Source: Panopea generosa (lineage: Eukaryota > Mollusca > Bivalvia > Adapedonta > Hiatellidae). Taken from it: 64,000 nucleotides of DNA. This document shows, one piece after another, positions 14,246 to 64,000 of this stretch. The notes beneath the pieces were generated by a model that did no database searches, was not told the origin of the DNA, and saw only the letters and a program-made list of their open reading frames with translations. Location of the stretch: assembly GCA_029582155.1 (NCBI GenBank), contig CM055894.1, forward strand, positions 34,560,132-34,624,131, in the 5' to 3' direction. The translations under genes were made by a program, and so were the position numbers. Numbering within the stretch: the stretch's first letter is position 1; each line of letters begins with the position of its first letter.

Positions 14246-14717
14246 TTAGTCACATTTTTGATGAGCTGACCTTCTATGTTTAAACAGGCTGCTCCTCCAC
14301 CGATACGATTTGTCACATACACTGCATCTCAAAGTTTTCAATAGATGTGCGCCATTCATGTGATCTGCTAGCTGGTCTTTTCGTGAAAAAGAAAGTGGAC
14401 ACTTGTCGCACTGGAATACTTCGTTGTTATTTTCGTCATGAGTTTTGAGATGCCTCTTTAAAGAGAATTTGGTAGTAGATAATTTTTCGCAGACCTGGCA
14501 CTTCGTCTTGATATCCTTACTATGGGAAGCCATGTGTGCAGTTAACTGCGCCTTCTCAATGAAATTCTTAGAACAAGTATTGCACTTGTGAGGACCAGTC
14601 CCTTCATGACGCATTATGTGCTTTCGAAGGCCACTAGGTGATTGATACAGTTTTCCGCAAGTCGAACAGGCTCGCCCATCTATAGTTTCTGTAAATGAGT
14701 CGTCCATTGCTGGAATT
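14246..14717 (-). CDS. C2H2 zinc-finger protein, five fingers (coding exon)
   Basis: The exon starts after a consensus acceptor (minus strand 'gttcttctttcag', boundary at 14,717). Translation is taken from the ATG at 14,705-14,707, giving 153 residues to a TAA stop. Five classical fingers follow in order: C14/C17-H30/H34, C42/C45-H58/H62, C70/C73-H86/H90, C100/C103-H116/H121 and C128/C131-H144/H149. The linker between the first two fingers (HEGTGPHKC) resembles the usual TGEKP linker. Known for the family: sequence-specific nucleic-acid binding in the nucleus. There is no KRAB, BTB or other effector domain in this exon. A longer frame running up into the intron to 14,839 is not supported, because it crosses the acceptor. 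The protein is short for a DNA-binding factor but complete as an exon. Target and role are unknown. Confidence 0.82.
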
Positions 14718-23085: not shown

Positions 23086-25154
23086 TCTAGCTGTTTTAGC
23101 TACTTCTCTAACAGTTAAGTCTGCTTTAAAACTCAATGCCTACAATAGTGCGATTCGTTGTTCTTCCTTAAAACGGAACAGGTCATATTATGCTAAACAT
23201 GTGAAGTGATGCACATACAATATTTTACTCAATATCCTACTTTCTCGGTATTTAGTACCCTACGTTATACTCAGGCAATTTCTTGGTTTAAATACGTACA
23301 CTTTATAAACTATCGTTTAACAAATTTAAGTACACAATGAAATATTTCTTACATTATATAAAAACAAATTGGACACAATTTATGCAGCAACAAACATTTG
23401 TTACCAAATCATCTCTTACCTGCGAATAATTATTAATATAATCAAAAATAAAAATGGACTGATTTTCACGAACAGATAAATGCGCTATTAATATCACATC
23501 ATTTATTCTAATAAAAGAGGTTATTTTCGGGAGTTTCCCCTTCAAAGGTCAGCGTATCGAATATAGACTATTATACAATTTAATAGTCATTCAAACTATA
23601 TACGTAATAACGTTCCAGTGACACTAAGCAGGTGTTGTTTATTTCAGTACAGTCTAGTCATGATCGTCTTCGATGCTTGCTAATCTAATTCAAATATTAT
23701 CTCTGAATAAAACATTTTCTTGCGCAAATGAACAGTTAAAGTACAAAACGTGCCACTTGTCCTTTAGAACTTCAAACGTCGAAGATGATTAAGATTATGT
23801 ATGGTCTACCAGTATTTACTAACGCGTCCATTTAATTTACGGGTTGGGCGAGTGGAATTTCTCTTAATATATTTCCATGGATACCAGTATCAGTTTAAAA
23901 AAGTTGCATATAACATCTTGTTAATTTTCAACATAAAAAGTAAAGGGATTGATACATCATGTTTACATTCCAAATAACAGCAATCATAGTTTCGTTTTTA
24001 TACATCATTTCGTTTATAACGAAAAGTTCATGAAGTCGCCTTTTTGTAGGATTACAACAACGTGGTCATTACGCTATTCGAATTCTTCGACATTTTTTGT
24101 AATTAAAGGGAAATAACTCATATTTCCTCACCATGATAAATGATACTAGTATTGGCCTCCCGTCGTTATATTCACAAATTGCCTTGCCAAAAATGTCGGA
24201 TTTTCTTACATTTTTTAGAAAATTACCGTGCATAAAAGAATACATTGGTATCAATTTTGAAGTCATCCAGTTGATGGCCAATGTCACTGTTATCAGTGTG
24301 ACACTCAAAAACGTCAGCTCCCTTTGGCTAGTATGAATGAATTTCATCGGATCGACTCAACACATCTTGAAGTGCATTTGTAATGGAAGAGAAATAACTC
24401 GTATTCCCTTTTAAGGTAAAATTCAAATATGATTTGTTTCTCATCGTTATATTATCAAAATCTTTGGCTAAACATATGCTGCATATCTTCGCTCAATAGC
24501 TTAGTTTCTCTTAAAGTTTCTTTGTGAAATTTTGGGGACAGTTATCTTACACGCATAGGTACGTTGGTGTCGATTTTAAGGTAATTCAATTTCAGGTCTA
24601 TATCATCCTTATTAGAAATATAAATTTGTTTCGTTCAATAATTTTGATTTCATTCAGATATATATGTATGGTGGAATTTCGTAGTTAAATTACCTAATGT
24701 ATATCAAACGAAATACTGTGCCAGTCTTGTTTTCAGTCATTCTCCTAAAGTTCAAGATCACTTTTTAAACACAATAACTTGAGTTCCCTATAATGTTTTC
24801 TTGGTGCGATTTCATATGTAAAGCCAATTATTGGTCATTATTTTGAAAACATGCGTTCAAAACGTGGTTGTTAAACGACTTTTTGTTCAGGAAATCTTAA
24901 TTAAAAGTATGTTGATATGACCAGAATATATGGTCAGTCCAGATGAACATGACAATAATATAGTTTAAGCACATTACTTCTTCAAAACGAGTTATCTTCT
25001 TTCCATAAAAGAAAAAACAACCTTCAACAATATACCGACAAACTTGTCTTAAAATACCAGATAAGGAAGGAGCAAAAACAGCCATTTAAGGCAGGTTGTT
25101 GCTTATTGCAGATTATTTTGCTCTGAAAGTATAGTAAGGGAAAATAGCCTATGT
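23086..25154. repeat. Intergenic with mollusc-type dispersed repeat fragments
   Basis: The phrase 'gggaaataactc' or 'gagaaataactc' occurs near 24,108 and 24,389, flanked by paralogous sequence ('aatacattggtatcaatttt' against 'taggtacgttggtgtcgatttt'). This is a diverged direct duplication of a dispersed repeat. No gene is supported. Confidence 0.5.
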
Positions 25155-25926
25155 GGCTGATTAAGACAAGTGGCTGATTAATAGAGATGATCCTTATACA
25201 GGTTTTACTGTTGTTTATATTATGTGCCAGTTTTGTTTTAGGTCATTCTCCTGGCAGATTAAGACAAGTGGCTGCTTAATAGTTTGGATTCTTATACAGG
25301 TTTTACTGCAGTTTATATAATGTGCCAGTCTTGTTTGAGGTCATTCTCCTGGCAGATTAAGACAAGTGGCTGCTTTATAGAGTGGATCTTTATACAGGTT
25401 TTACTGTAGTTTATATTACGTGCCAGTCTTGTTTTAGGTAATTCTCCTGGCAGTTTAAGACAAGTGGCTGCTTAATAGAGTTGATCCTTATACAGGTTTT
25501 ACTGTAGTTTATATTATGTACCAGTCTTGTTTTAAGTCATTCTCCTGGCAGATTAAGACAAGTGGCTGCTTAATAGAGTTGATTCTTATACAGGTTTTAC
25601 TGTAGTTTATATTATGTGCCAGTCTTGTTTTAGGTCATTCTCCTGGCAGATTAAGACAAGTGGCTGCTTAATAGAGTGGATCCTTATACAGGTTTTACTG
25701 TAGTTTATATTATGTGCCAGTCTTGTTTTAGGTCATTCTCCTGGCAGATTAGGACAAGTGGCTGCTTAATAGAATGGATCCTTATACAGGTTTTACTGTA
25801 GTTTAATAGAATGGATCCTTATACAGGTTTTACTGTAGTTTAATAGAGTGGATCCTTATACAGGTTTTACTGTAGTTTAATAGAGATGATCCTTATACAG
25901 GTTTTACTGTAGTTTATATTATGTGC
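25155..25926. repeat. 98-bp tandem array ending in a 37-bp sub-array
   Basis: Seven units of 98 bases start at 25,155, 25,253, 25,351, 25,449, 25,547, 25,645 and 25,743 ('ggcagattaagacaagtggc'). After the last, the period drops to 37 bases (anchors 25,768, 25,805, 25,842, 25,879). There only the 'aatagagtggatccttatac' and 'aggttttactgtagttt' part is repeated, so 61 bases were deleted from the unit before re-amplification. Several units are nearly identical, which suggests recent expansion and likely length polymorphism. Confidence 0.95.
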
Positions 25927-32272: not shown

Positions 32273-33515
32273 TCACAATATTTCATAGACATGTATCAAT
32301 AACTTTGGACAAAAGTTCATCCAGAAATCGGCGTGGCCATCTGGATAACTGCCCAATTCAGATTGGACATCTGGTGGGAAGTCTCTAAAGTGGTTAGTAA
32401 TATTTCTGATTGCTCGCAATAGGTACCTTACACTAGATCCTTTTCCGTCATACTGTTTTCTACCGATTACATTTTTCTCTTTAAGATAGGATCTTAATGA
32501 GCTCGGCAGATTTCGCATCCAATTTCCATTTGGTAACACAAACGCATTTTTCTAAGATGCTGTACTTTGTTGAATCTTCCCTAACCATGGCTTCAAATGT
32601 ATCGCTCTTATCCACAAAGAAATCTAATATTTCTTTCGAATTCCATAGCGCTGGATGTTCAAATACTTCTTTAGAAGGTGGCCTCTCTTCGTCTTTGTTT
32701 GTTAGCATCTTCTCCAATAGCTGACGAAGTAGGTCGTTTTTGTTTTCTAGAAGATCTAAGTCTGGTGGATTTCCTTGCGCAATGTTCTGTTGACTTCCCA
32801 TCTGATTGCCGTAAGGGTGCTTTCCTAATGTGGTTGCGTAATAAAACAATAAACCCAATGAAAATATATCCATTTTTTTAGTCAGATATTTTTTGAATTC
32901 TGAATTACTTTCTAATTTACAATTGACATCCCATGCCTCTGGAGCGATGTAGCCGATCGTTCCTAAAGCCACAGTAACTGAGAAGAGGCTATCTGATGTG
33001 ACTTCAGCGGACCCAAAATCTCCTAAAACAACCTTTGATATCTGCATTCCGTCATGAACAATGAATATGTTTTCAGGATTTAAATCACGATGTACGATTC
33101 CGTGCTCATGGAGAAAGTTATGTCCATTGACCATACAACGGTTCGCTTCAATCGGTTTCAATAATTTTCTAAAATCAGTATATGGTAATTCATTTTTGAC
33201 ATAGTCGCATAATGTACCTTGGCAAAATTCAAACCCTATGAATAGCTTATTAACTTGAACATGAGAACCATAGTACCCGACAATATTCACATTTCGATGT
33301 GGTTCAACATTTTCCTTCATTTCTACTTCTTTATACAGTTTCTGAAATTGCCTTTGCCTGTCGGTTGCGTCAGTACCATCAATGCAATCAATGCATTTAA
33401 CAGCTATTTTCATTCCCTCAAACCTCCCCTCATAAACTTGCGAAGTAGATCCATGTCCAAGTATTCTATTTGTATAGTAGTGCATGCTGGAACCTACTTG
33501 TCGTATAGAAGTACT
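32273..33515 (-). pseudogene. Kinase + KEN endoribonuclease exon (IRE1/RNase L architecture), one-base frameshift
   Basis: The exon follows a consensus acceptor ('ttattttcag', phase 0, boundary 33,515) and ends at a stop at 32,273. Counting from its first codon, the kinase shows a glycine loop (GHGSTSQVYEG, about 20-30), ATP lysine (AVK, 40), helix-C Glu (about 63), HRDLNPEN (142-149), DFG (166-168) and APE (191-193). The catalytic-loop lysine of HRDLKPEN is Asn. The KEN domain follows directly, but in the next frame. It has the expected catalytic set: Tyr in KQYDGKG and Arg, Asn and His in RAIRNITNHFRD, the positions of human IRE1 Y892, R905, N906 and H910. Known: IRE1 splices XBP1 mRNA and degrades RNA; RNase L cleaves viral and cellular RNA. 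No luminal, transmembrane or ankyrin segment is seen; upstream exons were not found. The exon length (1243) is one more than a multiple of three. The shift maps to a 5-A run near 32,546-32,550: one A fewer restores the frame. Decay or assembly error are both possible. Confidence 0.85.
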
Positions 33516-34215
33516 CTGAAAATAATGAGGGAACTTGATTAGATACACATTAACTTTTATAAATCATAGGAATATGTTCAGTTAGCAATAGTTTTGCAAG
33601 ATGAAATAATCTTAATAAAACATATATTTTTTAATTAAATTTATGTTGTTTAGAAACTGGTTACGATGAATTAAACCTCACTGGGATCGATACAGAAAAG
33701 CGATGGCCTGATCGAGTTAGAATTCCCCATTTACATTAACATATATATTAGTGTCTTTTACAAATTATACTCTGACAGGTTTAACATATAAGGTAAATCA
33801 TAGCAGCTTTGGCCATCCGAATTAAGTCAACTTTTGATAATCACTTCGTATTTATGCTTGACATATAATCACCCAGGGAAGTAGCATGTATATAGGAACA
33901 TATAGGAACTTCGCTTTTTTACATATTTTCTTCTAAATTCGGCAACTTCTGTATGACTACTATTTTGTAGACACACTATCGTTAAAATAAATAGTGGTAC
34001 TTCATCGCTTCTTAATACACTTATATACACTTTGTCTATAGGAGTTTATTTCTTCTTCTAAATTTAAATCGGTATTTTGCTGATATAATACATGATCATT
34101 CGATCATATTTATTATTTGTGTAGGATCAGTTGAACTATCATGGACTGATTGAAAGTTGTCTTCAATCGATTAAGCGTTGTTGATCGAACTAACAGTTGT
34201 TTATAGATTGCAATA
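33516..34215. other. Upstream flank or intron of the kinase-RNase gene
   Basis: AT-rich; I see no further exon of the kinase gene (no luminal, ankyrin or other sensor domain). Confidence 0.4.
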
Positions 34216-46730: not shown

Positions 46731-48520
46731 GACCACGACATACGGTATTTGAGTGAATACATTATATATCAAGGTTTCAATAGTTTAGTAATTTAAATGT
46801 CCGATAGCTATATTCCGACATAATCAGACCTAAGTTTTTTGTATGAATTGTTTTGATATGTTCAGATTAGAATGTAGTCAATTTATGTTCATATCCGCAG
46901 TATTGAGAGTTGTTCATTAGGTTATAGGTCGAAGAATCTGGAAACGTACTTTGAGATGCTTATATTGTGTTTATGATGAAAGATTGAAAATCGGTTTTTA
47001 TATTGTCAGATATGTGTAATTAAATTGTGTTTATTCTGGTTTCTTTTTTTTCTTTTTTGGAAACCAAATCAAGATCTTGCTGATGCCATTACAAAGCAAG
47101 TGCAAATAATTATGGAGATCTTGGTACCAAATTAATCTAACATGTGAAGATGTATAATAGCTGATAGAAAATTTATATTTAATTATATTGTATATAGTTG
47201 GATACATTATGACTATACTATATGAATGAAATTGTGTACTATAATAGCAGTATCCCTTAACTGATCAATAATTATGTATACATAGTTAAGTCTCTTGAAG
47301 ATATTTCTATAGAATATCTCATTATAATTGCCACATATTATATTAAGGTATTAGATCTGTAATGGTCAATATCGCAACCAAGCCTAAACTTGGTGTCTTA
47401 GTTATCACCATCCTATGACGGATGTTATTCTGAATTTTTAGAAGATTTTACCGTCTAAAATGAAAATTATTTAAATTTTAAGTATCCAATGCCTATAACC
47501 TCAAAACGGCAAAAAATGAACAACTACAAAACACAATGAAATAGCTATAATTTCCATATATATACTATAAATGATATATAAAAGGCATTATTACATTACA
47601 TCAACACCGCTGAATAGACTAACCCTAAGGAAACTAACATATCTTAATTCATTTTTAATAAATCTTAAAAAATCTTACACTTCCCTCACTTTTGAATTGT
47701 TACTTTTTTTGCAATATTTTAAAATGTTCTAGCATCATTTCTATTATAATTAACCACTAATGTTGTATGCCAAAATTTTCCACATTGTTAGAAATGAGAA
47801 ATGCGAAAAGATAAACAACTTTTACCGTCTTGTTTTCTCATAATATGGTATTTTATAAGATAAGTATCAAAATAAAAGGCAGCCACTTTAGCGACATAGT
47901 GTTTTTTTAACATCTACTAACAGCAAACAGATAATGTGTACTTGTTAAATATTGTATTTAGGCAACTGTTTTTATTAAAACAATATTGCTGGGTGTAATG
48001 ACACATAAGAAACTATGTTCATACTCTAATAGCTTGACTGGAATGTTTAATAAATTCAAAATATTACCCCACCTACCCAAAAATTGTGACAAAAAATAAT
48101 TATTTTCTAATATTTTAGCCCCACTTCCATATCACAAAACAATTCTTATATTGTATATCGAACTATACTACATTGTTAAAAGTAATAAATACACGAAAAT
48201 AAAACAAACTTTTGCCATAACATTTGCCAAAGGGTGAAATATTTTATAAAAATAAGGAACCTACATTTTCATCAAACACTTTGTCTTTTATCTTTAGTAA
48301 TAATTGTGTATTTATTGGTTTGAATTTGCAAATGATATACAAAACTGGAACTGGTAGCTACAACAATAAAATATATTTGGAGTGGGTGGGGGTCAGGTGT
48401 TGGAATTTCTATCTAAAAAGTTGGTTGTGTTTGCGACACGTGTATGTCTTTTACATTTGAATGTGCTGAGCAAACCATCTCTGTAAATAAAAAAAAAAAT
48501 ATATAAAAAAAATTGAGCGC
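46731..48520. other. AT-rich intergenic DNA
   Basis: No supported exon or classified repeat. A frame at 48,224-48,460 is not supported. Confidence 0.4.
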
Positions 48521-48600
48521 CAGTCTGGTCTTAACCCATTATGCTAATCCAACGCTCTAACCTCTTTACTAACGAGACCACAACGTCCGTAGAGTTACAA
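48520..48600 (-). repeat. tRNA-Ala-like pseudo-tRNA or SINE head
   Basis: On the minus strand 'gttagtaaagaggttagagc' resembles an A box, and a TTAGCAT loop (anticodon AGC) follows. The T arm is not convincing, so I call it tRNA-derived and non-functional. Confidence 0.45.
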
Positions 48601-48823
48601 TTAATTAAGATACATGAAAAGTAAGAAATTGTGACGCTTATTTTGGTTCGATCAATATTAAAATGACGAAAACAAGTGTGTCATTTCGTGTAGTTGCGCA
48701 GATTCATCGATATTTTACCCACATGATGGTGCGCAAAATCGATTTTTTAGCCACATGATAGATGTGGTCAACATTGATATCATAGTCGTTATTCTGATCC
48801 GTTTTCTTTTTATTTTGTACAAC

Positions 48824-48900
48824 AACCTTGACGATCAAATTTTGTTTTAGCTTCTTCTTCCATGATGGAAAATCCAATATGACGTCACTACACGCGTGAA
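48824..48900 (-). promoter_or_regulatory. Candidate promoter and first coding exon of an unknown gene
   Basis: On the minus strand a palindromic TGACGTCA (48,880-48,887, CRE-like) and an inverted CCAAT lie just upstream of ATG at 48,861-48,863. The frame reads MEEEAKTKFDRQ and reaches a possible donor, AAG|GTTGTT, near 48,827. An upstream GC-richer patch contains CpGs and a GGAA-rich segment. No downstream exon was identified, so both promoter and exon are tentative. Confidence 0.3.
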
Positions 48901-50240
48901 AACACCTTGTCATGTGACAATGTTACTAAATTTAGCCACCACGAATGGTTTTCTGACTTGCGGAAATTCGTTCCGGAAAGTAACGATTGATCACGGTGTT
49001 AGTCGATTTCTACCGAGAGCATTACAGATCTAATACCTTAAAGTATTATTAATAATATTTTCGAACTATTTTATATTAAATTATGATAAAGAAGAGCTTA
49101 AGGAAAGGTCTATTCTCAATATGGTGTTTTAATTAAACTCATGTACGCTTTCATCGGTCCGTATTGAACATGAAAACGATTTCAATTTATTAACGCATTG
49201 TATCCATGCCTGGAATAATAATGTTCGAGGTATGTCCCTAAAGTATTAAGACCACCGAGTCATTTTCGTATAAAGGCGTCACATGCAAACCAATGCTATC
49301 AATGGATAGATCGACACCCTTATATTGTCATAAAACATCAAATTAACTTGCAAAAGTCATCATAGTAACGTGAAGTACTGAGGACATTGAAGTTAGACGC
49401 CATTTACAAAAACAGCAAGACTGGTGATGACGTTTAATTTTTGTTGTGAGTATCTTCATAGCAGAATTGCTTTCAATTAAGATATGGCATTTACATTTCG
49501 GCCTCGTACCGACCCTATGTCAAATCGACCCAAGTCATTTCAAATCTTCCGTATTTCGGTTCTAATATTGAATTTTAGTTATAATGTTAAAAAAAGGTTT
49601 TGAATTAAAATGAGAATTTGCATACTGATTGCGTAAAATCGAAAACTGTTAATGAAATAAAACATAGGTGTATTTTCTATTTTTTTATTGTGCAAATGTA
49701 CTAAGTCTTGTTTTAAGATCAGTGCTAGAGTTGTTGCATGGTCTTCATTTGCATCGCAGTATTCGGTGTACTGCCGAAATACTGTAGAAGAAATGTAACT
49801 TGAAACCTAATTTAATAAACTGTTACCAACACTGATAGTAGATAACCAATCATGCCCACAAATATGTATGAGTGATACTTGATTGATGTTCACATGACCT
49901 AACGTCAGGTTCAAAGACATTCACGTAACGCTAGAGTATTGCCTTTTGTTTTAAAGATATTAAATTATGACGTGAAACAACAAAAAAGATTTGATCACCG
50001 GAAGGCATGTATGCGCATGCAGCAAGCATATATGATGCTCCGTAATGTTTGTGTGTTGGCATTAAGACGAAAGTAATATCCTGGAATCAAACACATATTC
50101 AGTATCGGGTGATATCTGACGCCTTCAATTATACACTGTCAATTTTACACTTTCGGTATGTACTTAAGTGTTGTCGCAGGTGATAATATTTATTTCCCAC
50201 AATTTGTTCGGCTTTGCGTTCATGTAGCCATAACTATATA
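48901..50240. other. Intergenic, nothing firm
   Basis: No coding exon recognised. The phrase 'tcctggaatcaaacaca' near 50,080 recurs near 50,711 ('tcctggaaccaaacaca'), so the left edge of the local duplication system may begin here. Confidence 0.4.
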
Positions 50241-50302
50241 TGTTATATGAATGAAGGGAAACAGACATTGGCCATTATTCAGATATCTGCAGATTCGTTT
50301 AA

Positions 50303-50481
50303 CTATGCCTGTATGAGATATGCAGACACACTGCCAAGAAACCATAGGCGCAGATGGGCGTGACAATCTGACACAATAATTTTTAATAACTTAGCGTTGT
50401 CACTCTCGTGTCGACTATCTTCATTATTCGCTCCATTTGCTCCTAAAAGCGGTACAAGCGTATGCTTTTCAACTGAAGGAT
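50303..50481 (-). CDS. Tail exon A: diverged or alternative C-terminal exon of the membrane-protein gene
   Basis: The minus strand has a good acceptor ('cgtatatttattactcag', boundary 50,481) followed by an open frame of 58 codons to a stop at 50,303. It begins with two bases of a split codon (phase 1), the phase needed to join the membrane exon or microexon at 62.7 and 60.4 kb. The peptide opens PSVEKHTLVPLLGANGANN and ends KIIVSDCHAHLRLWFLGSVS then AYLIQA. It is clearly paralogous to the tail exon at 57,242-57,405 (shared acceptor, KIIVSDCH and AYLIQ). It keeps Pro-Leu-Leu but lacks the acidic residue that would complete a [DE]xxxL[LI] sorting motif. It may be an alternative 3' exon or the remnant of a neighbouring paralogue. 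No protein family recognised. Confidence 0.5.
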
Positions 50482-51280
50482 CTGAGTAATAAATATACGA
50501 CAATATAAACGGGTATAAAAACAACATCATGTTAAACAGAGACATATACAAACCGATATATATATACTTGCACAAGGACAAAGATAATTAAATTTATTTT
50601 AACGTAACAATGACTAAATAATAATGCCTTTAACTAACTAAGGTGGTATAGATGTAACAAACAACACATATCATTGATCAACGATAGAAATTACGACCGA
50701 ACGATTGTGGATCCTGGAACCAAACACACATTCAGTCTCTGAGTCATATGATACCTGATGATGTAACCCAAAAATGTGTATTTATTTTTTGGGCTTCTAA
50801 ATTGAATCAGATTATGATGTGAATACTACGTAGTGCAATGAATGACAGAGGTATTGAAGTTTACAAAGAATGTAAATGAAAAATTGTTCCACTGTAAACC
50901 ATTCACACTCGAGCAAAAAAGTGGGTATACTAGCTCAAATTACGATATATGAAAGCCGACTAAATAATGATTCTGAACACTACATACTAGTGATAAGTAA
51001 TTACTCAATCACACGAAACATATCATTTTTCTGTGTGTATGATATTGGTCATTAAACTATTGAATAATTATTTTTGTAATTGTACCTCTCTTGTTTGTAC
51101 ATAGAGTCCAGTCAGTATGTTAATATGCCTAAAACTATTTGCAAAAGAAATGGTTTTGTATGAATAATGTTGAACATGGTCCTGTGATCAACATATAAAA
51201 AGTCTAGAAAAATCAAGGTAGAGAAAATACTGTTTATTTCGATTTAAAAATCTCTAGTTTCTGTCAAATTCTACTGGCGC

Positions 51281-51369
51281 TTACAAGCCACCGTAGCAGA
51301 ACGCTGTAAGATGAGCACATGCATATCGTGACATTTCATGACGTAATAGACTGTTCTCTACCGTTTGTA
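51281..51369 (-). CDS. Possible further terminal exon (29-residue tail)
   Basis: A good acceptor on the minus strand ('ggcatttttatttcag', boundary 51,369) is followed by a phase-1-compatible frame VQTVENSLLRHEMSRYA and so on, ending at TAA (51,281-51,283). The patch is more GC-rich than its flanks. It lies between tail exons A and B, so a third alternative end of the same gene is possible, but there is no sequence similarity to the other tails. Confidence 0.25.
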
Positions 51370-51749
51370 CTGAAATAAAAATGCCAACAAACATAAGAGC
51401 AGTAGGATAATTTGATTTAGATAGGTAAGATGTGATTATTTAAATGTTTTTCATGATTGAAATATTTTAATATACTGTTGTAGATTTAAATGCCAGGCAT
51501 TTTTATGATAAATATTTGAAAAAAAAACTTCATTATGTAGACGACGTGTTGTTATGTTGGTTTTCGTGGGCAGATTTAAACGTAGAACTATATGTAAGCA
51601 TTGAGAATTTATTTTACATGAAATAACTTTAAGGCATTTAAGGAATTGCAAGTTTTATAAATTTTAGATAATAAGATAAATAAAAAATTAAATGTTTCGT
51701 TTGCTGTGAAATTATGTATATTTGTTTAATATAAATATTTTTTTCCAGA

Positions 51750-54700
51750 ATGACAGAATCATGTGCACTGTGTTATGAAGACTTACATAATGGACTTGCC
51801 ATTGTTACGTTAAGACTGAAAAGGGGTGTAATGACATTAATAATGCAAGCAAAGAGCGAGGTGACACTATATGTACTATTCCTGGACAATTAGTACATAC
51901 CCATTGTCGGAAAAAAACTAATGTAATCATAACGTGATCGAAAGAGATAGAAAAACTCCGGTAGAACCGATCACAAGTCCACGAACTCTAAGATAAAACT
52001 GAACAATTCAGCTTTAGCGAATGGTGCATGTTTTGTGTCATACACTATCTCGATGAAAATGACAATGAGCAATTAACTGTATCAGATCTTGTGTACAAAA
52101 TACACGAAATTTGTGAAGACGATGCTTTTAGCAAAACATACATGAAAAAGAAAGTAATAGAACATTTCGCACTGCAATAATTATTTCTGAGTTGAATGGC
52201 AAAAGTGATATAGTACACTGATAAATACAGCTTCATATGTTCTTTATGACTTTCATCAACGTCAAAAAAGTGTTGATACTGAAACTGAAAAGCTTACAAT
52301 TTTGAAAACAGCATCAAAACTAATAAGAAGTCAAATAAAAACAATGGAGACTTCAAAAGCTAATTACCAAACTCCTTCAGAACTTTTATCTGTTGAACAA
52401 AACATTGCATATTTGCCAGAGTGTCTAAGCTTGTTCTTAAGAACACTTTTTATTGAAAAGAATGCCGATGTAAAGATTGCGGCAATCGGTCAATCAATCG
52501 TACAAGCTACAAGACCAAGGGTCATTATTGCACCCCTTCAATTAGGACTTGGGATTCAGCTGCATCATGACTTTGCATCCAAGTTTCGCATCAATACTTT
52601 TTACAGCCTTGAATTTTGTTGTTATACACTGAAGTTTAAAACTTTGAATCAAGTGCAGCAGTTCCTCAAGGGACGGATCTCTATGGTTTTCAACCTGGTA
52701 AATTTGTCCAATTCGTCGCTGATAGCGTAGATCATAATATTAGGACTTTGGATGGACACGGAACTTTCCTTGGGATGGGATCGTTGCATGTATGACACAA
52801 GGAACACACAATCACAAACCTATCCCTAGAATGACCGTTTCATCAAAGAACATCCTCTGTGCTGTGGATATAAATATATCATACTACAGAGCAATAAAAC
52901 CAATGAAATACTGATCACATTTGATGAACTTGAAGATTTAAGGGTTTTGGACAGCACTTTAAAACTTGATCTTTTGCTTAAATTGTCTTGGCTCATAAGC
53001 CCGGTTCGACCTGGGTGATCTGGAATTATGCAGATGATACAAGAATTATCCACAGAATTATCAGGAAAATCATCAGTTGTATTCATGCCAATGATTGACT
53101 TTAATCCAATTGATATGTCATGCATATTTACAACTCTAAAGTTTGATGATGATCAAGCAGTCAAATATGGAACTGATCCTGTGGTAACATTTGACCAGCC
53201 ATTATACTGGAAGGCATTGACTGTCGTGCTGAACGAACAAGAGAATAGTAGCCTTCGTAAAGTGATATTACGGTAAGGAGGTTTTCACACAGGCATGAGT
53301 TTCCGTGGATGTATTGGTCATCTGATGCAAGAAACAGGCCTATGCGAGTTTTTATTTTAGAAACAGTCTAAGCTCAAAATGCTGTTGGACATATGCTGAA
53401 TGGCAAAGCAGTTGCAAGACAATGCTTTAAATTCAATAATAATCTCGAAAGTATTTCACTGCTACTAAAAAGCGACAGTAACAGTGCATCGAGTGACAAG
53501 CAAATTATCATAAATGACCTTTATAAAGTAGATGCAGAACACGAAACGTCCAACATTGCAAGATTAGAGTAACATCGGTAGACTATATGATGATCTTGCT
53601 ATGGGAAAAAATTGGTCCTTAGAATAATGTTGCAGACAAGAGGAGCCAGAAAGCAACACAGCGCAACATGTAATTGATGGCGGAGCATTACTTTAGCGCA
53701 TACTATGGGACCGTGCTTCAACATTTTCTAACATTTGTAGTATTTACATTGTATGTAGATTATGTATCTGGAAAGTTTCATGACCCAGGAGTTGTATTTG
53801 ATGGATAAGAGTCCGGACCATCTACAAAAGATGAAGCGCATTTGCGACGTTCAAAAGGAGCTGTTGGTACAAAACTTAATTGCACAGATAGTACTCCATT
53901 TAAAGGGAAACAAGAACATTTTCTCGCAAATTCAGAAAACAAACAGCAATTCATAAAAATGCTAGGTGGATCTCTGGAAAACAAATGTCATAAAGTAGTA
54001 TATGCGGAGGGTGAAGCCGATTTACTTATAGTACAGACAGCAGTTGCTTGTGCAGAAGAGCGTAACGTGATTTTGAGTGGTGAAGAAACAGATCTTCTTG
54101 TTCTGCTGATCTATCATGCTAGTATTGAAAGTAACAGTATATTCTATTAGTCGGAAGAGAAGCAAAACATGTATAAAACATTACAAGTTTGGGATATCAA
54201 GCGGACAAAGGTGTTACTTGGACCTGATACATGTACATGTGGACATCACGACTATTTGGGGTTGGGAAAGGGCCAGCAGTTAAAAAGCTTATAAAAGACA
54301 AACAATTTCAGGAATGCGCAGAAACATTTACAAAGACAAGTTTACTAAAGGATGTTCTAATAGCAGGAGAACGTGCATTGGTTATTCTTTATGGCGGGTT
54401 CTACTAGAGGGTATGGATTTGTTGCGTTTTAGGAAATTCACTAGTAAAGTAATGACTAGTACAACCTATGTACAAGTACATACACTTCCACTAACATCGG
54501 CTGCAGTAATGCAACATAGCCTGCGAGTTTACTTTCAAGTTCAAACTTGGGTAAACTCAAATGTGGAAATAACACCTCATGAGTGGAGATTGGGAAGTTG
54601 TCGAAAAAACCATGTTACCAATCAAGATTCCTTTTCCACCAGCGCCTGACAGTTTGATTAAAATGATGAAATGCAATTATAAAGTTAACTGTGATACGAA

Positions 54701-54770
54701 AAGATGCGCGTGTAGAAAACATGAGCTCAAACGTTCTGTTAGTTCTGGAAAGTGTATGGGTGTTTGATGA
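51750..54770 (+). pseudogene. Decayed member of a multi-copy invertebrate gene family (FEN/PIN-like acidic motif, C-terminal Cys cluster)
   Basis: A CDS-like stretch of about 3 kb follows a splice acceptor ('tatttttttccag') just before ATG at 51,750 and is broken by many stops and shifts. Segments in order are an N-terminal MTESCALCYEDLHNG (CxxC); 'WCMFC' near 52,033; an open part at 52,302-52,730; 'VTFDQPLYWKALTVVL' near 53,190; 'GGFHTGMSF' directly after an in-frame TAA at 53,274; 'VVYAEGEADLLIVQTA' near 54,000; 'LSGEETDLLVLLIYH' near 54,075; and a C-terminal CNYKVNCDTKRCACRKH (54,675 on). Intact relatives, as I recall them, are multi-copy in molluscs and cnidarians and uncharacterised. The EGEAD and DTDLL pair resembles the metal-binding acidic residues of FEN1/XPG-type PIN nucleases, and the Cys cluster resembles CXC/tesmin motifs; both are inference. 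It lies on the strand opposite the membrane-protein exons. Confidence 0.7.
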
Positions 54771-55690
54771 ACAAATGTATCAAATCTGAGACAGACTTAA
54801 GTGAAAACATATAAACTCGTGCAAAACACGGATTGTGACAGGTTATATCAACTCTTAAAATAGCAATACACAAATTTGTATTATCATTTGATCAATTCTG
54901 AACAAAAAATAAAAGTAAAAATGTATAAATGTATATGTTTATATACTATTAAATTGATAACCATTTTGTAAAGTATTCGAAGGTATATGTTTCATATAAT
55001 ATATTTAATAATTAGATATATATCAATAGCATTTATTGTTGCTAATTTATATTTAATTTAATAGTTGAATGATTGGTTCTATACACTACATTAAAATTAA
55101 ATACTTCAAAAAGCAATATATAACATATATATCCGTCAAAACAACACTTTATTTCCCTTAAATATGGTGGTTAGAAACATAAAATTTTAACAAATTTCTC
55201 TCAATTAGATTGTTCTAGACTTTTTTTCACAAATTTTAAATACGTTTAGCTTCTCAAAAATCCAGGAAATAATTATTTTGGAATTAGTTTGACGTTTAAC
55301 CATACTATCTCATAGGCTGATTGGGCTAATAATCCTGATGTTGTATAATAATTTAATGAATATATTTATGTTGCTTAACCGCACTACAGTGTTTGAAATT
55401 ATGTAATAACACATAAATCCATTTTCTGGAATAGGCAAGGACATATATTTTATATCTTATATGTTACCAATCAAGATTTGTTGCAATAATGACGGTTTAT
55501 CTGATACGTGATCAGTTTGTGTCGGAGGCTTGCCAGTTTTATGCTATGTAATTGTCCAAGAATCCTGAAGGTACTGCATCGTAATAGAGTTTTGTCAAAC
55601 GATACTTTGGACAATGATGTCAGTGTATCCCTTATAAAGTGTTATTGTCAATCACTAGTTTTGACGCGTTCTGTATTAACGGTATACAAC
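54771..55690. other. AT-rich intergenic DNA
   Basis: No supported feature. A frame at 55,508-55,741 is not supported. Confidence 0.4.
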
Positions 55691-57241
55691 TACCTGTTGG
55701 AATATGTATTTTTAAAAATGACTTTCTGCAAAAGTTTCTGATTTCCAGGAAATATTCTCCAAGCGATTGATTTAGCTAACTGTATGTGTATGTAATCATT
55801 TGGAGCGCAGAAAGATTTGTTTATCGCACTATAAAGCAACCGATGTTTGATAATTGGCACTGAATCGTGCTGTTGTATGGCAGTTGGAACTTGTTAATAC
55901 CTGTACAACACAACCATTTGGGGTCAAAAGCCATTCCCGAAGAAGTCTTATTAAAATCTATGACTTCATTGAAAGCAAATGCATGTAGCTGTTTCATAGT
56001 ATATACAAGAAGGGCTGCTTAACATAACACTTTTTCCCTTTTTGCGTAAAGCACCAATACTAAACTATATTATTGAAAATAATATTTACCTTTTAATTAA
56101 TTAGATACTCATTATGTAATACAGTCATTTTCCTTAATAAACAAATCAATAGGACATTGACTCAGACAACGCCAGTCAATGGGTCAATTCTAAACATAAA
56201 ATAGATTTTCAAATATCTTGTAGCATTTGTAAAGATGAATTTCTGTCGATCCTTTTTTTAATACGCTTAATCAATATAAATACTATATATGTACATAATT
56301 TTGCATTTGAAATACATAATTATGCACAATAACCTTTAGACGTACTCTTAAATGTAGGGAAATATACATTGACCATTATTTAGATGTCTGATAATTTGTT
56401 TAAAGACAATTGCTATAGTTTTTGTCATATTTTTCCTATGGATAAAATTTCATGAAACGTCCCAGTATTTAAGTTTAATGTACTAGTATATTCATGCAAT
56501 ATCAGAAATAAAAAAACACATGCTACCGTACATGCCTTTTGGTATTAGCTTCTCATAAACATACCCGTTCTCGATAATTGGCAAACAAATGTTTAACAAG
56601 TAATGCAAAAACAATATTTTAAATTATTTAATTCTAGTATTTTATTAAAACTAATACACAGATGCATGCATATAATAATGATTGTCATGGAAATAGCAAG
56701 TATAAGCTTGAATTTAACTGTTTAAGTTTTTTAAAAACAAAAACATTTCGGCAGAGTGCCAATTTGTTTTTCAATTTTGCTATACAATATAGCGTTTTTT
56801 GACATTTTGATATAGTGTATAGCTAGAATTTCCTTAAAACCTCACAAAATACCCTCTGATACCTATTCTAATGATAATTAATATAAAGAATACATGTAAC
56901 CGCGTAATTTGAGACAACATATTTCCCAATGTATGCCATCATTAAATAAACTGCAGTTGCAAAATTAACGCGTTTATATATAATGAACATAGTTGTATAA
57001 ATATTAAGATTTCTATTATATTTTATATTTAGGTTAAATTGTTATAAAGAATTATTTGCATATTTAATATATTGAACATAATATAAATGACCAATTTCAG
57101 ATGTATCCGTAATGAGAGTGTCATCCGAAATAGGGTCAGTTGTAGCATAATATCATGTAGTGACACTGGCTGATCTCGACAACATTACTTCCCATTGTGC
57201 GCGGAATTATAGCGCTTGAACAACTATAGCAGTTGCCATAA

Positions 57242-57405
57242 CTATATCTGAATCAGATATGCAAATACACCATCAAGCAGGCATGCCCACAGATGGATGT
57301 GACAATCAGACACAATAATTTTAAATAAAATACTGATTTTATTCCTTTGTTGAATGTCTTTATTCGCTTCATTTATTAAAGGACGTCGTTCTTCATTCAA
57401 CAAAT
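57242..57405 (-). CDS. Tail exon B: C-terminal cytoplasmic exon of a membrane protein
   Basis: Acceptor 'tatatttattactcag' on the minus strand (boundary 57,405), then two bases of a phase-1 codon, 53 further codons and a TAG stop. With the G left by the upstream exon the first residue is Asp, giving DLLNEERRPLINEANKD at the start and FKIIVSDCHIHLWACLLDGV then FAYLIQI at the end. EERRPLI fits the acidic dileucine motif [DE]xxxL[LI], known to direct membrane proteins to endosomes and lysosomes through AP adaptors, but that function is inferred here. The C-terminal third is unusually hydrophobic for a cytoplasmic tail. Frame and phase agree with the microexon at 60,360-60,386 and the membrane exon at 62,663-62,776. 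Protein family not recognised. Confidence 0.55.
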
Positions 57406-58661
57406 CTGAGTAATAAATATAAAACAGTATAAACGGTTATAAGAGCATCATCATGTCAAATAGAGACAGATACGCACCGGGATGTGTTCACACAAGGACA
57501 CAGATAATGCATTGTGAACATTATGTGGGACATCAGGAAGAGAAACAAGACAGACAGGTAGTTATTCATATAGACATGTGCGGATTGGCAGCAAGACATG
57601 AAACGCCGATAGACGCCGAGATCGAGCCGCTGACAACACAAATTTACATACAGAAACAAGTACTATGTATAACTGTTACTATTTATATTTTTTTTTCAAC
57701 GCTACGATAACTACATCAATACTATATGTATATAACTAAGTGATACACATTACGCATATATCATATCTCATTGTAAAACGATAGAAATTACGACCTAACG
57801 ATTGTGAATACGACGTGTCCGCCTGCAATCGCTACCGCCTATATATACATACTTAACGTTTTTATGGAAATTTATACAATATAACAATGTATGTACACGC
57901 CTTGTATTATAAAACAAATATTGCAGTGTTAAGAAAATGACTTTTTGCATTAGTTTCTGACTTCCAGAAAATATACTCTGAGCGATTGATTTAGCTAACT
58001 TCATTTGGAGCGCATAAAGATTTGTTTACCGCACTGTAAATCAACCGGTGTTTGATAATTAGCGCTGAATCTTGCTGTTGTATGGCTGACGGAAGTTGTT
58101 AATACCTGTACAATACACACATTTTTACTTCATCCTGGTAAATGGTTACATCAACTATTCTTATGTAATGACATTGAATCGCCCCACCCAACTGTTTTGC
58201 TTTTGTGATAAACAGCCATTCCCGAGGAAGTCTTATTATAATCAATGACCCAAGTGAAAGTTTTATAATATATGAAAGAAGGGCTGCTTGGCATAATACT
58301 TTTCCGTTTTACGTAAAGCACCAATACTTAACTATAGTATTGAAAATGATATTTACCTTTCAATTAATTAGATATTCATTATGTAATACAGTTATTTTCC
58401 TTAATACACAAATCTATAGGACATTTACCCAGACAATGCAAGTCAAAAAGTCAGTTCTAAACATAAAATATATATTAAAACATCTAGTTACGTTTGCAAA
58501 GATGAACATCCGTCGATACTTATCTTTAATATGCTTAATCAATATAAATGTTATACACAGTTTTGCAATAAAAAATATATCTGCACTGTAACTTTGAGAC
58601 ATACTCTTCAATGTAGGGAAATAGATATTGACAATTATTCAAATGTCTGTTATTTGTTTAA

Positions 58662-58790
58662 CTATATCTGAATAATATATGCAAATACAAAGTCAATCAT
58701 GCATACACAATAATTTTTAATAGCGTACTTGTTACATTCCATAGTCGAATATCTATAGATGCTTCATTTATACAAAAGCAGCATCATGTA
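58662..58790 (-). pseudogene. Tail exon C, broken copy
   Basis: The 3' end matches tail exon B (FAYIIQI then TAG; preceding KNYCV matches KIIVS). About 70 bases covering the acceptor and exon start are deleted relative to copy B, and stops interrupt the remainder. It cannot be spliced as the other tails are. Confidence 0.65.
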
Positions 58791-59524
58791 AAATAGCGAC
58801 AGATACGCACTGACATGTATTAACACCAGGACACAGATAATGTATGGGGAGCATTATGTGGGACATCAGGAAGAGATACAAGACAGATAGGTAGACATAT
58901 AGACATGTGCAGATAGGCAGCCAGACGATAAGCGTCGATAGACGCAACAATCGAGCCGCTAACAACATACATACACATAAAGAAATAAGTATTATAACTA
59001 TTCGTCGATTTAATTATATTTCAACGCAATGATAACTACATCAATAAAATATTTTTTATGTATATCACTAATGTGATACACATTACACAAACAACACATA
59101 TTATACGACCGAACGATTGTAGATCCGATGTAAATATAGGTGCTTAAATTTGTATAGTATAACAATGTGTGTATGCCTTGAAATATTCTTGTAATAAACT
59201 TATACAGCGTTACGTGAATAAATGATCTCGTTTATAAACATATTATGTATAGTCTGTGTGTAGAAAATAGAGTAAACACGCATTGCTATTTTCCTCATTG
59301 TATTTTATGACATAATTTGTACAAATAAATTAATGGTTATTTATAATACGACTAAATATATTAGAATTGAAAATATTTTTTGATTTCTATAACGAAACGA
59401 AAAGGGCACACAGGTCTATCTTCTTATGGTATTTTTACATGAATTTCAAATCGAAAAGAACAAGAATATGTAGTCGGCACTATCCATAGCCATTATGTAT
59501 CTTACTCGGACGTTCTGAGTTCAG

Positions 59525-59760
59525 AGTGTTCCCCATGGCCGAGTGGTATAAGGCGTCGTCTCAAGGGAACTTACTCCTCACTGCTAAAGTTCAAAAAACG
59601 CTCACTCCGAAAACGTTAAGTGAGAAAATGTGCCAGTTACTTACGGAAGGACGGTGTTCCTACTCAGATTCAATCTGAAGACTTCATCCACTTATAAAAC
59701 TGGATATGCCAAATATAACCTAAAATTTGTTAAAAATGGCGTTAAACCCCATTAAAAAAT
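59525..59760 (+). repeat. SINE copy, family C (tRNA-like head), copy 1
   Basis: The head 'ccatggccgagtggtataag' and 'gcgtcgtctcaag' is Leu/Ser-tRNA-like at the A box; the B box ('taaagttcaaaaaac') is decayed. The tail ends 'gttaaaaatggcgttaaacc'. Confidence 0.7.
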
Positions 59761-60359
59761 AACTTCTGAAACTTGAAACTGATTCACAGAAAAAAAGTAA
59801 CACTTTCATCAATAGGGTTTGTCGATGTGCATTGGAAAGTAAAGTATTGGTAATTTTGTTAATTATTTCTGTAGTAACAGATTAAATACTGAAGAGGAAA
59901 ACTTCTTAGTAAAGGCACTACTACAACACTAGGTTGATAAATTTATCTTGAACAATTTTGGAGCAATGCACCTGAAACGAATGTTGGCTATTGGTTCAAT
60001 GGTAATAGACAAATATGGAAGTGGACTCCATCATAGCAAAATGCAAAAGTTGACCATAAAAATGACACGTGTAGATATTTTCTTAAATTTTCATTAACAG
60101 CTTTTAATTTAGACAATTTTATAATTTTGGATATTTGTTTCAATCTATGGTTTCAGAAAATACTTAAAATGACTCCATTGAAATAATATGCACTACTAGA
60201 TCACGATGTTAACATGTGTACAATGTTTCAAGATGCTACCTTGAACATTTTATTTGTAATAAACTAATATAGTGTTACGTGTTACGTGAACACTTAAATT
60301 CGTAAATAAACATAGTACATGTGCATATAGTCTATGTGTAAAAAATAGAGTATACTTAC

Positions 60360-60386
60360 CACGCTTGTTGTATTTATTGACAGAGT
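60360..60386 (-). CDS. 27-nt microexon of the membrane-protein gene
   Basis: On the minus strand a textbook acceptor ('tttatttattttgcttcag') is followed by 27 bases and a consensus donor, G|GTAAGTAT. Read in phase 1 it gives Asp (completed by the preceding G), then SVNKYNKR and a final G. It joins without frame disruption to the membrane exon before it and to either tail exon after it. The peptide is polar and basic, as expected just inside the membrane. The duplicated counterpart near 59.28 kb has lost both splice sites. The exon is too short for ORF searches; support comes from the splice signals and matching phases. Confidence 0.6.
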
Positions 60387-60534
60387 CTGAAGCAAAATAA
60401 ATAAATGGTAATTTATACTACGACAAAATATATCGGAACTGAAGTTATTGATTGATTGCTTTCAAAATTATTTACTGAAACGAAAAGGACACTACCCAGT
60501 CTGTATTTTACTAAGACAATCTGAGCTCAGAGTG

Positions 60535-60665
60535 TCCTCCGTGGCTGAGTGGTTAAAGGCATCGTCTCAAGATCATTTATCTCTCACTGCTAAGGTTCGG
60601 GAACTACTCGCTCCCAAAACTTTAAGTGAGAAAGATTGCCAGCTACTTGCTGATACGTCAAATAT
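60535..60665 (+). repeat. SINE copy, family C, copy 2
   Basis: 'ccgtggctgagtggttaaag' and 'gcatcgtctcaag' with a better B box 'aggttcgggaactac'. It is a duplicate of the 59.5-kb copy. It causes the open frame at 60,448-60,792, which is not a gene. Confidence 0.7.
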
Positions 60666-60962
60666 TGAGATTTTTGTGCTATTTGTTTCCATGACAGACA
60701 GATATGTAATTGAAAATTTCTTTATATGTGAGATTTTATGGATCTATGGAACAATTATAGTATTTTTCAAAAATACGAGTATTACATATTAACGTGATAG
60801 CAACGAAGATTCATCTCTATACAAAGGCAGTGTTCGTCTTTATTTCGTGAATTTAAATGCAATATTAAGAAAGTTATCAGGTAAAATGTACCTAAATGGA
60901 CACTTTTCCTCTGTTTTATGAGGTCATATGGGTTTGCCACAGTGATTATATATTGAAATCAT

Positions 60963-61084
60963 TATGAGTAAGTTGATAGTTAGGGGATATTTGTATGAGT
61001 AAGTTGATAGTTAGGGGATATTTGTATGAGTAAGTTGATAGTTAGGGGATATTTGTATGAGTAAGTTGATAGTTAGGGGATATT
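60963..61084. repeat. 31-bp tandem repeat, four near-identical copies
   Basis: 'atgagtaagttgatagttag' starts at 60,964, 60,995, 61,026 and 61,057. The copies are essentially identical, so the array is young. Confidence 0.95.
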
Positions 61085-62662
61085 TTAACATGTAAATTGA
61101 CCTGACTTGACAACGACTATCGCTCCGTGCACTAGCCACGTGACGGTGTTTTATAACACATGCAATAAATCATGTCAATAAAATGTATTGTTTACTTAGA
61201 CATCGTCAGTTTATCTTAAGAAAATTTCTAAGGACATTTGCGTCAGTCAGACACTCATTAGGTAAACAACAGCTAGTGTCCATTATATATATTACACAAA
61301 AAAACTGTACTTTATATTTTATTATTGTAGAAATTCTCGTTTTCAATATAACTTAAATGAAGTTCATATACTTTCATTTAACTGATATTAGTTTGGTTTA
61401 TTCATCAAACATCCGGGAACAATCAAAAACTATAAAAAGCGTGTTTAATTTGCAATTTCCATACCCGATCAATGATATAGAAAATAAGTTTCAAATATCT
61501 CAACTTTGCATTAATGCCAACACGGACGTAAAATATCTACAATACATTCCAATAAAGAACATCCGTTAACAGTTACTAATATCATTGATAAACAGCAGAA
61601 CATAATTATATTTTATATAACATTTTGTTCACAAATTTTATAATATTGCCACGTGTGAACTCAACATTAGGTCAACAACTGACATACAAGATGATAAAGC
61701 AACTGAAATTAATTGCATGCTTACGATCACTCGTTATAGAAGTAGGATTAAATTTGCATTGCTTAATACGTTTTTGACTTAATATTCGTTTAATGCATCA
61801 TATATTCAAAAGAAAAACGTTCATTGACATCATATATACTAAACACAAAATCTTTAGCTGAATCTTGTGCCACATACATGTAAAACATGACAACTCATAT
61901 AAATATCAACTGGACATTTTGTAAAATTGGAACTCTACAAAAATACTGAGAACGAAATTGGTCATTTAAAGTTATTATGAGACTATCCTAATATAAACAT
62001 GAACGTAAAGTAAACATTATTTTGTAGAATCGTTTTGTCCGTTTGACAACACTTTTTCATTGAAGCCTCGGAAACTTTATATCAGATGACACTTTTCTAC
62101 AAATGTTGCTGAACAAAAACAAAAACAATCAGTTGTATACGAGTATAGCGATTATTTCTCCTGGGACATACATTTTTAGGTTTTCTTCAGAATTGAGATA
62201 CTGATAATCGTTTTAATCGCATTTTTGTGTCTACTCAAACTATTACATTGTGTAACAAATTGAATGAAAACTGATGCCGTGTATTTAACTTATTTACACA
62301 TTCAAATAAGTCATATATAATCATATATATATATGGAGATAACTATTTGTGAATAACCAAGACATAAATGTACAGACTACGGCGAATGCGCCTAGCTACA
62401 ATGCAAAACATAGATACACTATCCATGCAACACATCTGGACAAGATGAAAAGATTTACATACATGAACTGATAGCTCTATATGAGTAGGTTCCAGTTAAG
62501 GATTCATGACTACTCACATGCTTTATAAAGGACAGATTTATAAACCAGTTGGATCATATAGATAAAGTGAGATAAAGTGAATTCATATATATTTAATTAT
62601 ATATATATATCAATATCCGTAAACGTATGCAATGTAAGGCTAAAAGTAATACACATTTATAC
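61085..62662. other. Intron and AT-rich sequence between membrane exon and microexon
   Basis: No further exon recognised. TA-rich microsatellite-like runs at about 62,317-62,333 and 62,589-62,612. A plus-strand frame at 61,357-61,569 is not supported. Confidence 0.45.
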
Positions 62663-62776
62663 CTTTCAAACACTGTTGTAGGCGGTAAACGCCATATATT
62701 ATCGCAACCACCACACCAATGACAAGTACGATTAGTCCTATTGCCCACCATGGAAATCCAGTGTTACTTTCGTTAA
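62663..62776 (-). CDS. Transmembrane exon of a type I membrane protein
   Basis: The minus strand shows acceptor 'aattaatttgcag' and donor G|GTATAA around 114 bases. The exon is symmetric (phase 1 at both ends). It encodes NESNTGFPWW, a hydrophobic helix of about 20 residues (AIGLIVLVIGVVVAIIYGVY) and a short juxtamembrane RLQQCLK. Trp residues at the outer boundary and a basic inner side fit a single-pass type I segment. Phase 1-1 exons are typical of modular extracellular proteins. In molluscs this type of exon often follows EGF-like or other extracellular modules, but none is visible in the 1.2 kb to the right, so the ectodomain is unknown. It joins in frame to the microexon at 60,360-60,386 and then to a tail exon. 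Confidence 0.65.
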
Positions 62777-64000
62777 CTGCAAATTAATTTATTGTAATAT
62801 CTGTATCAGTGTTATAAAATTGAAACCAGTATTTGCCATGTGCACCTTTCGTTTTGCTAGCAAATGTATATATGTATTTACATTATAGAATGTTTACACC
62901 TAAAACAGGAACCTAAAATGGAAGAAATATACCGTGTGCCAGTCGGTTGCGTATATTTACATTTAACTTGGTTCCTCCGTCTTCACATCATAAAACGGTG
63001 CAGTGTGCATAAATATAACCCCGCTATAATTGTCTCATAAAATCGGCATATGTGGTTATATGTAAATGGTCATTATATGACAATATCCTTGACCACTCGG
63101 TCACGGTTGACCTTTGAATAGACGTAGTTTAGTAGTTATAACCGATACATGTACATAGATTGCAATAATTTGGTACATTTCATATAACACTCTAAGAGTC
63201 GTTCAAACATTACAAGTTTAAGTCGTCGTATGAGGAGAACGAAAAAAGTTAATGAATAATTTTACTAATATGTGTTATTATTAGTATTTCTGATTCATTG
63301 CTGTAATGGAGGTCACGCAGTGTCATTTGATAATTGAATAACGTTTAAACTGGTGCCAAGAGCATGGTAGTATTGCATGATCTATTATCGTTTTATTTCA
63401 TTCGCTTAATTGTTTTCCGTGCTTGTAAAGTATCTTTTTATCATATTTCATAGTAGTTATATATAATCTTGATATGTTATAACAGCATTGATAACACTCT
63501 TGTATTTTTAATTTAGTATATGCTAACAAATGATTCACAAACCTATAAGACAAATATAATAAAACACAAAACACAATCACTACACATCTATTTTTTTTTT
63601 GTTGTTGAAAAATATTCTTCACTGGTTTTCAGAACAAATGTTTTGCCAAACATATAACTACAAACCCCTTATAGATTGTTTTTGAAAGTGTACAATATAA
63701 ATCACATCGATCGTAATATGTATTTCTTAAACGAGCGGTAAGCTCGTATATCGTATTTGTTTGAGAGTACACAAATGAATACATGTAGTTTGGTGCGCAT
63801 ATTACCCTGATTTTCAGTTTCGACTATTAAAAATTGAGAAGTTACAGGGAGACGTCACTTCGTAATTAGATTTTTATCACGCGGTTATATATTTAGGTGA
63901 CGTACCATTATTTAGAATAAGCCAAATTCAATGGTAGTGTGGGAATTAAGACCGTTAAATAATGGGTCCATTAGTAAGATAAAAAATGTTATTACTTCGG
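62777..64000. other. Probable upstream intron, AT-rich
   Basis: No cysteine-rich or other extracellular exon found on the minus strand up to the window edge. A frame at 63,398-63,622 lacks a consistent splice phase. Confidence 0.4.

Follow-up and report, generated by a model that had tools for sequence, protein, structure and literature searches.

The window analysed here comprises 64,000 nt of the Panopea generosa contig CM055894.1 (assembly GCA_029582155.1), and the exons under study lie at positions 50,303 to 62,776. They would make up the 3′ end of a single-pass membrane-protein gene, in which one transmembrane (TM) exon and one microexon are followed by two paralogous terminal exons, each encoding a putative cytoplasmic tail. 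Along the transcript the exons are:

62776-62663, minus strand: TM exon, 114 nt, phase 1-1, AG before and GT after, encoding NESNTGFPWWAIGLIVLVIGVVVAIIYGVYRLQQCLK
60386-60360, minus strand: microexon, 27 nt, phase 1-1, encoding DSVNKYNKR
57405-57242, minus strand: tail B terminal exon, 164 nt including TAG, encoding DLLNEERRPLINEANKDIQQRNKISILFKIIVSDCHIHLWACLLDGVFAYLIQI and then a stop
50481-50303, minus strand: tail A terminal exon, 179 nt including TAG, encoding DPSVEKHTLVPLLGANGANNEDSRHESDNAKLLKIIVSDCHAHLRLWFLGSVSAYLIQA and then a stop

All four minus-strand exons have AG/GT borders and phase 1 at every junction. The predicted product consists of NESNTGFPWWAIGLIVLVIGVVVAIIYGVYRLQQCLK from the TM exon, DSVNKYNKR, and either the 54 residues of tail B or the 59 of tail A, with the residue split by the junction counted; the two tail exons differ by 15 nt, or 5 codons. 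For A and B alike the frame stays open both through the microexon and when the TM exon is joined directly to the tail, and therefore four isoforms are possible on paper. The TM segment has a 19-residue hydropathy of 2.97 and is followed by the positively charged YRLQQCLK and the tail, as in a single-pass type I protein. The exon coordinates, sequences, shared phase and in-frame joining reported in an earlier note on this DNA were all reproduced on the minus strand. The intron preceding tail A is almost 10 kb long. A second in-frame acceptor at 50472 (minus strand), 9 nt inside tail A, scores -0.9 against -1.1 for the first, and with such a near-equal score tail A could start three residues later. 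The intron between the TM exon and the microexon contains four copies of a 31-bp unit (60963-61085), the expansion of which is probably recent since the copies match at 100%.

The TM exon and the microexon exceed what is expected by chance. Splice sites were scored with consensus-frequency matrices not fitted to Panopea generosa, and on this scale the microexon acceptor ranks among the best 1.1% of AGs and its donor among the best 0.26% of GTs. When exons of the same class were sought (a length of 9-60 nt divisible by 3, no stop in phase 1, and splice scores no lower than those of the microexon), only 2 of the 100 random sequences of 64 kb yielded an equal, a mean of 0.02 or about 0.0016 scaled to a 5.26-kb interval, and the microexon was the only member of its class within the window. 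The class of the TM exon was defined by phase 1-1, a length of 66-210 nt, splice scores at least those of the TM exon and a 19-residue hydropathy of at least 2.97. No equal was present in random 64-kb sequences generated by order-3 (0 of 25) or order-2 (0 of 20) Markov models, and with both strands of the window scanned the TM exon was the sole member. Such exons are common once the hydropathy threshold is lowered to 2.0, as at least one then appeared in 16 of 25 random runs; at this value the real window has three, all of them on the minus strand, and the TM donor is shared by two of these. The two tail acceptors score equally, at -1.05 each, which is middling (best 15.6% of AGs). Behind acceptors of this grade on both strands, a phase-1 open reading frame (ORF) of at least 53 codons was found in 66 of 926 cases, a count that includes both tails and has many entries nested within one ORF. 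Since tail-length phase-1 ORFs are this common, neither tail is remarkable alone; their paralogy and matching phase are.

The paralogy was mapped by self-BLAST of positions 48,000-64,000 against the whole window, and the paralogous matches are all direct. Seven blocks follow one another along the transcript in this order:

60648-60239, minus strand: M1, the microexon region, alike to M2 at 70.9% (230 nt) and 76.3% (156 nt)
59642-59176, minus strand: M2, a duplicate microexon region, dead, lacking both the acceptor AG and the donor GT
59089-58610, minus strand: T3, a third tail block with a pseudo-exon, its acceptor and exon start gone and its frame shifted
58661-57934, minus strand: DS3, the downstream block after the dead tail T3, from self-BLAST
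57809-57239, minus strand: T2, the tail block with tail B, from self-BLAST
56403-55715, minus strand: DS2, a downstream block, alike to DS3 at 79.3% (488 nt) and 82.0% (205 nt)
50712-50250, minus strand: T1, the tail block with tail A, 71-73% alike to T2

Three tail copies thus lie downstream of the microexon in the same orientation, and two of them are intact, each in phase 1 with its own TAG. Tail A and tail B are 71.5% alike over 291 nt, 5′ intron included, and along 327 nt of intron T2 agrees with T3 at 78.6%. Judged by these alignments, the tails are part of a larger segmental duplication that took in the intron beside the microexon, the tail and the downstream sequence, and the terminal-exon region was duplicated two or more times and then altered by substitutions and indels. 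Looser searches across the 64 kb gave no tail copy beyond the three. The tail remnant of T3, at about 58,660-58,770, is interrupted by two gaps, the first of which deletes the acceptor and exon start while the second cuts into the conserved end; tblastn recovered it in two segments, INEASIDIRLWNVTSTLLKIIV and VCMIDFVFAYIIQI, whose frames differ. T3 is closer to tail B in its intron, yet its acceptor and frame are lost. Copies at this locus do decay, as T3 and M2 attest, and the presence of two intact tails is therefore informative. The earlier note had proposed a receptor gene with a choice of tails created by local duplication. The duplication is borne out by the paralogous blocks, with a unit larger than the exons and the microexon region copied too. 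Of the proposed gene, one TM exon, a shared phase and paralogous terminal exons with their own stops stand.

Other repeats adjoin these blocks. The upstream part of M1 (60493-60648) resembles a short interspersed element (SINE) derived from a transfer RNA (tRNA), as does the paralogous stretch of M2 (59487-59642). ARAGORN, in its bacterial setting, found no tRNA gene in these stretches, and Rfam gave no match in the window at gathering scores. The tail A block is flanked by a 26-nt direct repeat (50711-50736, minus strand, and 50078-50103) with 2 mismatches, and each copy of the repeat holds an acceptor-like ttccag.

Both intact tails keep an acceptor, an open frame and a homologous TAG at about 71% identity, and their acceptors are identical over the last 16 bases of the intron. 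Neutral decay was simulated in 4000 runs per setting, with a divergence (d) of 0.10-0.15 per lineage and an indel/substitution ratio of 0.10-0.15; the flanks themselves show 47 mismatches and 7 indels. Under a strict count, in which an intact tail keeps its AG and has its stop no more than 6 codons from its place, 3.4-12.0% of the neutral runs left tail A intact and 5.6-18.0% left tail B intact; the product for both tails, 0.2-2%, assumes independence and is uncorrected for the pair having been noticed because both are open. A laxer count that allows a later stop gave 11-25% for A, 10-26% for B and a product of 1-6%, and other settings (indel ratio 0.05; d of 0.20 and 0.35) gave strict values of 0.6-20% for A and 0.9-26% for B. 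In this neutral model, then, both tails would only rarely stay intact. The tail alignment has 7 indels, all of them early in the exon and none in its last 87 nt, in agreement with the earlier observation that the tails diverge at their starts.

The two tails also differ in what follows their stops. Behind tail A an AATAAA lies at 50194, 109 nt past the stop, while the nearest signals behind tail B, ATTAAA at 57068 and AATAAA at 56646, are both inside an insertion. Poly(A)-like signals are thus present less than 600 nt behind both tails, such motifs being common in AT-rich DNA. The insertion is the following:

57238-56404, strand not assigned: insertion of 835 bp, beginning 3 nt past the tail B stop and lacking in the other two tail copies

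Its ends are similar in inverted orientation, GCTATAGTT, with TTA flanking both sides, and beyond it sequence resembling the other copies restarts at 56403. It looks like a small transposon, a candidate miniature inverted-repeat transposable element (MITE) with a 3-bp target duplication, and it is a candidate for having displaced the 3′ untranslated region (UTR) of tail B.

The explanation preferred here, tentatively and with a chance just short of even, is that the exons are the real 3′ end of a single-pass membrane-protein gene with tandemly duplicated alternative last exons. The protein would probably be a type I receptor with its ectodomain exons past base 64000. The paralogous blocks, all on one strand and in a consistent order, support this explanation, as do the open, phase-matched exons, the rarity of the TM exon and microexon in random sequence, the two intact tails with their identical acceptor ends, and the poly(A)-like signals behind both. 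The transcript would end in either of the two alternative last exons: use of the tail B acceptor, with RNA cleavage at a signal within the insertion or beyond it, would yield the tail B protein, and continued transcription with skipping of tail B would yield the tail A protein. The microexon may be optional because every junction is in phase 1. Since the tail acceptors share the last 16 intron bases, the choice between them would rest on polyadenylation, elongation or elements elsewhere. The tails are alike in their C-terminal halves and most different in their membrane-proximal halves, so that the choice would probably affect sorting or adaptor binding and leave ligand binding unchanged.

Several observations weigh against the duplicated-last-exon explanation. 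The TM exon carries weak splice signals, the acceptor being among the best 38% and the donor (AAG/gtataa) among the best 11%, and inside this exon there are a better donor at 62716 (1.4 versus -0.8) and a better acceptor at 62737 (-3.4 versus -4.3). The good splice signals claimed earlier for all the exons therefore hold for the microexon, which is strong; the tails are middling, and both ends of the TM exon score poorly. The C-terminal half of each tail is fairly hydrophobic, with a 19-residue mean of up to 1.66 in B and 0.99 in A, which is unusual in a cytosolic tail. At the level of coding constraint, the Nei-Gojobori ratio of nonsynonymous to synonymous substitution (dN/dS) between A and B is 0.74 over 54 codons, with a bootstrap range of 0.37-1.59 (0.59, 0.19-2.27, for the last 28 codons); as this range spans 1, coding constraint on the tails is not demonstrated. 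The differences per codon position, 16/18/20, carry no codon signature, and the exons, at 74.7% identity, do not surpass the introns on their 5′ side (77.2% and 81.6%) in conservation, gaps omitted. A crude test, on long duplexes, for an RNA docking site that pairs with a selector ahead of each tail gave no signal, as fractions of 0.50 and 0.73 of 100 shuffles did equally well. Finally, no protein family was matched to the TM and tail chain in the Pfam, structure and viral-contig searches: Pfam gave only sub-threshold matches for the TM exon, microexon and tails (FtsL, 0.017; Chordopox_A13L, 0.034 and 0.016), a search of solved structures with the TM, microexon and tail B query returned 0 matches, and the same pattern had 5 matches in viral contigs, none of them confirmed. 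FtsL and Chordopox_A13L, being below the curated cut-offs, were judged to be chance matches to a hydrophobic helix. Purifying selection on the tails was likewise set aside as unsupported, since dN/dS is indistinguishable from 1.

A possible but less probable account is that the gene is real and a single tail is used, the other intact-looking copy being merely without a lethal change as yet, unlike T3; the tail in use would more likely be the proximal tail B, and otherwise A. In its favour, dN/dS between the tails does not depart from 1, T3 and M2 show that copies die at the locus, and a lone neutral copy survives in 3.4-18% of the simulated runs (d of 0.10-0.15, indel ratio of 0.10-0.15), or 10-26% by the laxer count, a frequency too high to dismiss this account. 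However, both copies retain an acceptor, the phase, an open frame and a stop at about 71% identity, and poly(A)-like signals occur within 600 nt of both.

More doubtful is a view of the locus as an animal receptor gene whose terminal exons form a birth-and-death array serving as a cytoplasmic-tail cassette, the surviving copies re-routing one ectodomain and the isoforms differing in mRNA regulation. Tail copies would arise by segmental duplication and then either die or keep their frame; tail B would carry a membrane-proximal dileucine and tail A a displaced one, and the insertion, by displacing the original 3′ UTR of tail B, would make the isoforms differ in mRNA regulation. Tail B contains ERRPLI, starting at its sixth residue, which fits [DE]xxxL[LI]. 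In tail A, PLL stands at the homologous place, the acidic residue four before is absent, and DNAKLL follows further along. LIMP-2 carries the acidic dileucine signal DERAPLI (PMC5297682), and EERRPLI of tail B resembles it in fitting [DE]xxxL[LI] with a proline before the leucine; the likeness is confined to a six-residue pattern, the general form of which occurs in 26% of tail B shuffles. Among shuffled tails [DE]xxxL[LI] is matched by 26% for B and 17% for A, and the proline form by 0.5-0.7% (0.5% for B). With a dileucine match in 17-26% of shuffles, a tail-dependent difference in trafficking is an idea, not a result. A trafficking switch as a proven difference between the tails was rejected, because both tails match the motif, as do those shuffles.

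An improbable reading takes the entire stretch for a gene fragment or duplicate in decay, with every exon unused and the in-frame assembly left over from the past. Such decay would accord with the weak TM splice signals, the dead microexon and tail copies, the insertion just past a stop and the broken look of the plus-strand ORF pieces between the tails. On the other hand, the microexon splice sites are among the strongest in the window, neither the TM exon nor either tail is interrupted, and at least one complete path survives. Least probable is an origin of the exons from different genes or a repeat family, for example with the tails and the microexon block on a dispersed element and the true tail of the TM exon elsewhere (strong acceptors at 62435 and 62108 would give DVLHG, 5 residues, and ATFVEKCHLI, 10 residues), for which the tRNA-SINE-like stretch beside each microexon copy, further strong acceptors within the intron and the direct repeats bracketing the tail A block may be cited, but the tail blocks are confined to one locus and strand within the 64-kb window and no second TM exon passed the thresholds there.

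If the duplicated last exons are both used, the locus would be a compact case of receptor tail choice arising from terminal-exon duplication, with a dead copy showing the process. In the alternative oxidase (AOX) gene of the oysters Crassostrea virginica and C. gigas, terminal exon 10 is duplicated together with part of the 3′ UTR and gives two mRNA variants (PMC5589949). The exon 10 copies are 63.5% and 65.9% similar in the two oysters, and one mRNA has the second exon 10 while the other has both, through an alternative 3′ splice site (PMC5589949). A duplicated terminal exon with alternative use is close to the arrangement proposed here, but AOX is a mitochondrial enzyme whose copies are equal in coding length, are not separate last exons and are shown to be used by mRNA (PMC5589949), whereas the Panopea locus concerns a putative single-pass membrane protein, has a third, dead copy and would use both tails only by prediction. 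Homologous terminal exons also stand in tandem behind a common stem in Drosophila pip; there they form eight clusters, the product is a sulfotransferase and not a receptor, and the passage in question concerns 3′ UTRs (PMC9013439). Isoforms with different cytoplasmic tails, as proposed here, are described for SorCS1, a likeness in the way they work (PMC9673319). In Kirrel3 an insert of 25 residues lies next to the TM segment on its inner side, and there is a choice of intracellular ends (PMC10698715), and the passages concerned do not mention paralogy of these ends (PMC10698715). The locus would likely unite terminal-exon duplication with receptor tail variation, both already known separately, and the kind itself is familiar from oysters and flies. 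Among the matches listed in a literature search, no title dealt with duplicated cytoplasmic-tail exons in a bivalve receptor, which does not deny their existence elsewhere. Because the exons are short, one of them a 27-nt microexon, and one intron is almost 10 kb long, such gene ends are easily missed by annotation.

Several further features were observed in the window. Between tails A and B, ORF pieces on the plus strand (52209-54649) resemble a broken gene or element; of the three, the two that were scanned gave no Pfam family above cut-off. An ORF of 360 amino acids at 32481-33563 on the minus strand encodes a protein kinase domain (Pfam Pkinase, 6.9e-37), and a C2H2 zinc-finger ORF of 207 amino acids with five matched stretches lies at 14246-14869 on the minus strand. 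A degenerate long tandem array at 2933-5137 on the plus strand has a 30-bp unit and later units of 57 and 253 bp, with long open frames on both strands. Another array, of a 98-bp unit, extends over 25154-25916 with 6.7 copies at 93% and continues into a 37-bp array at 96%.
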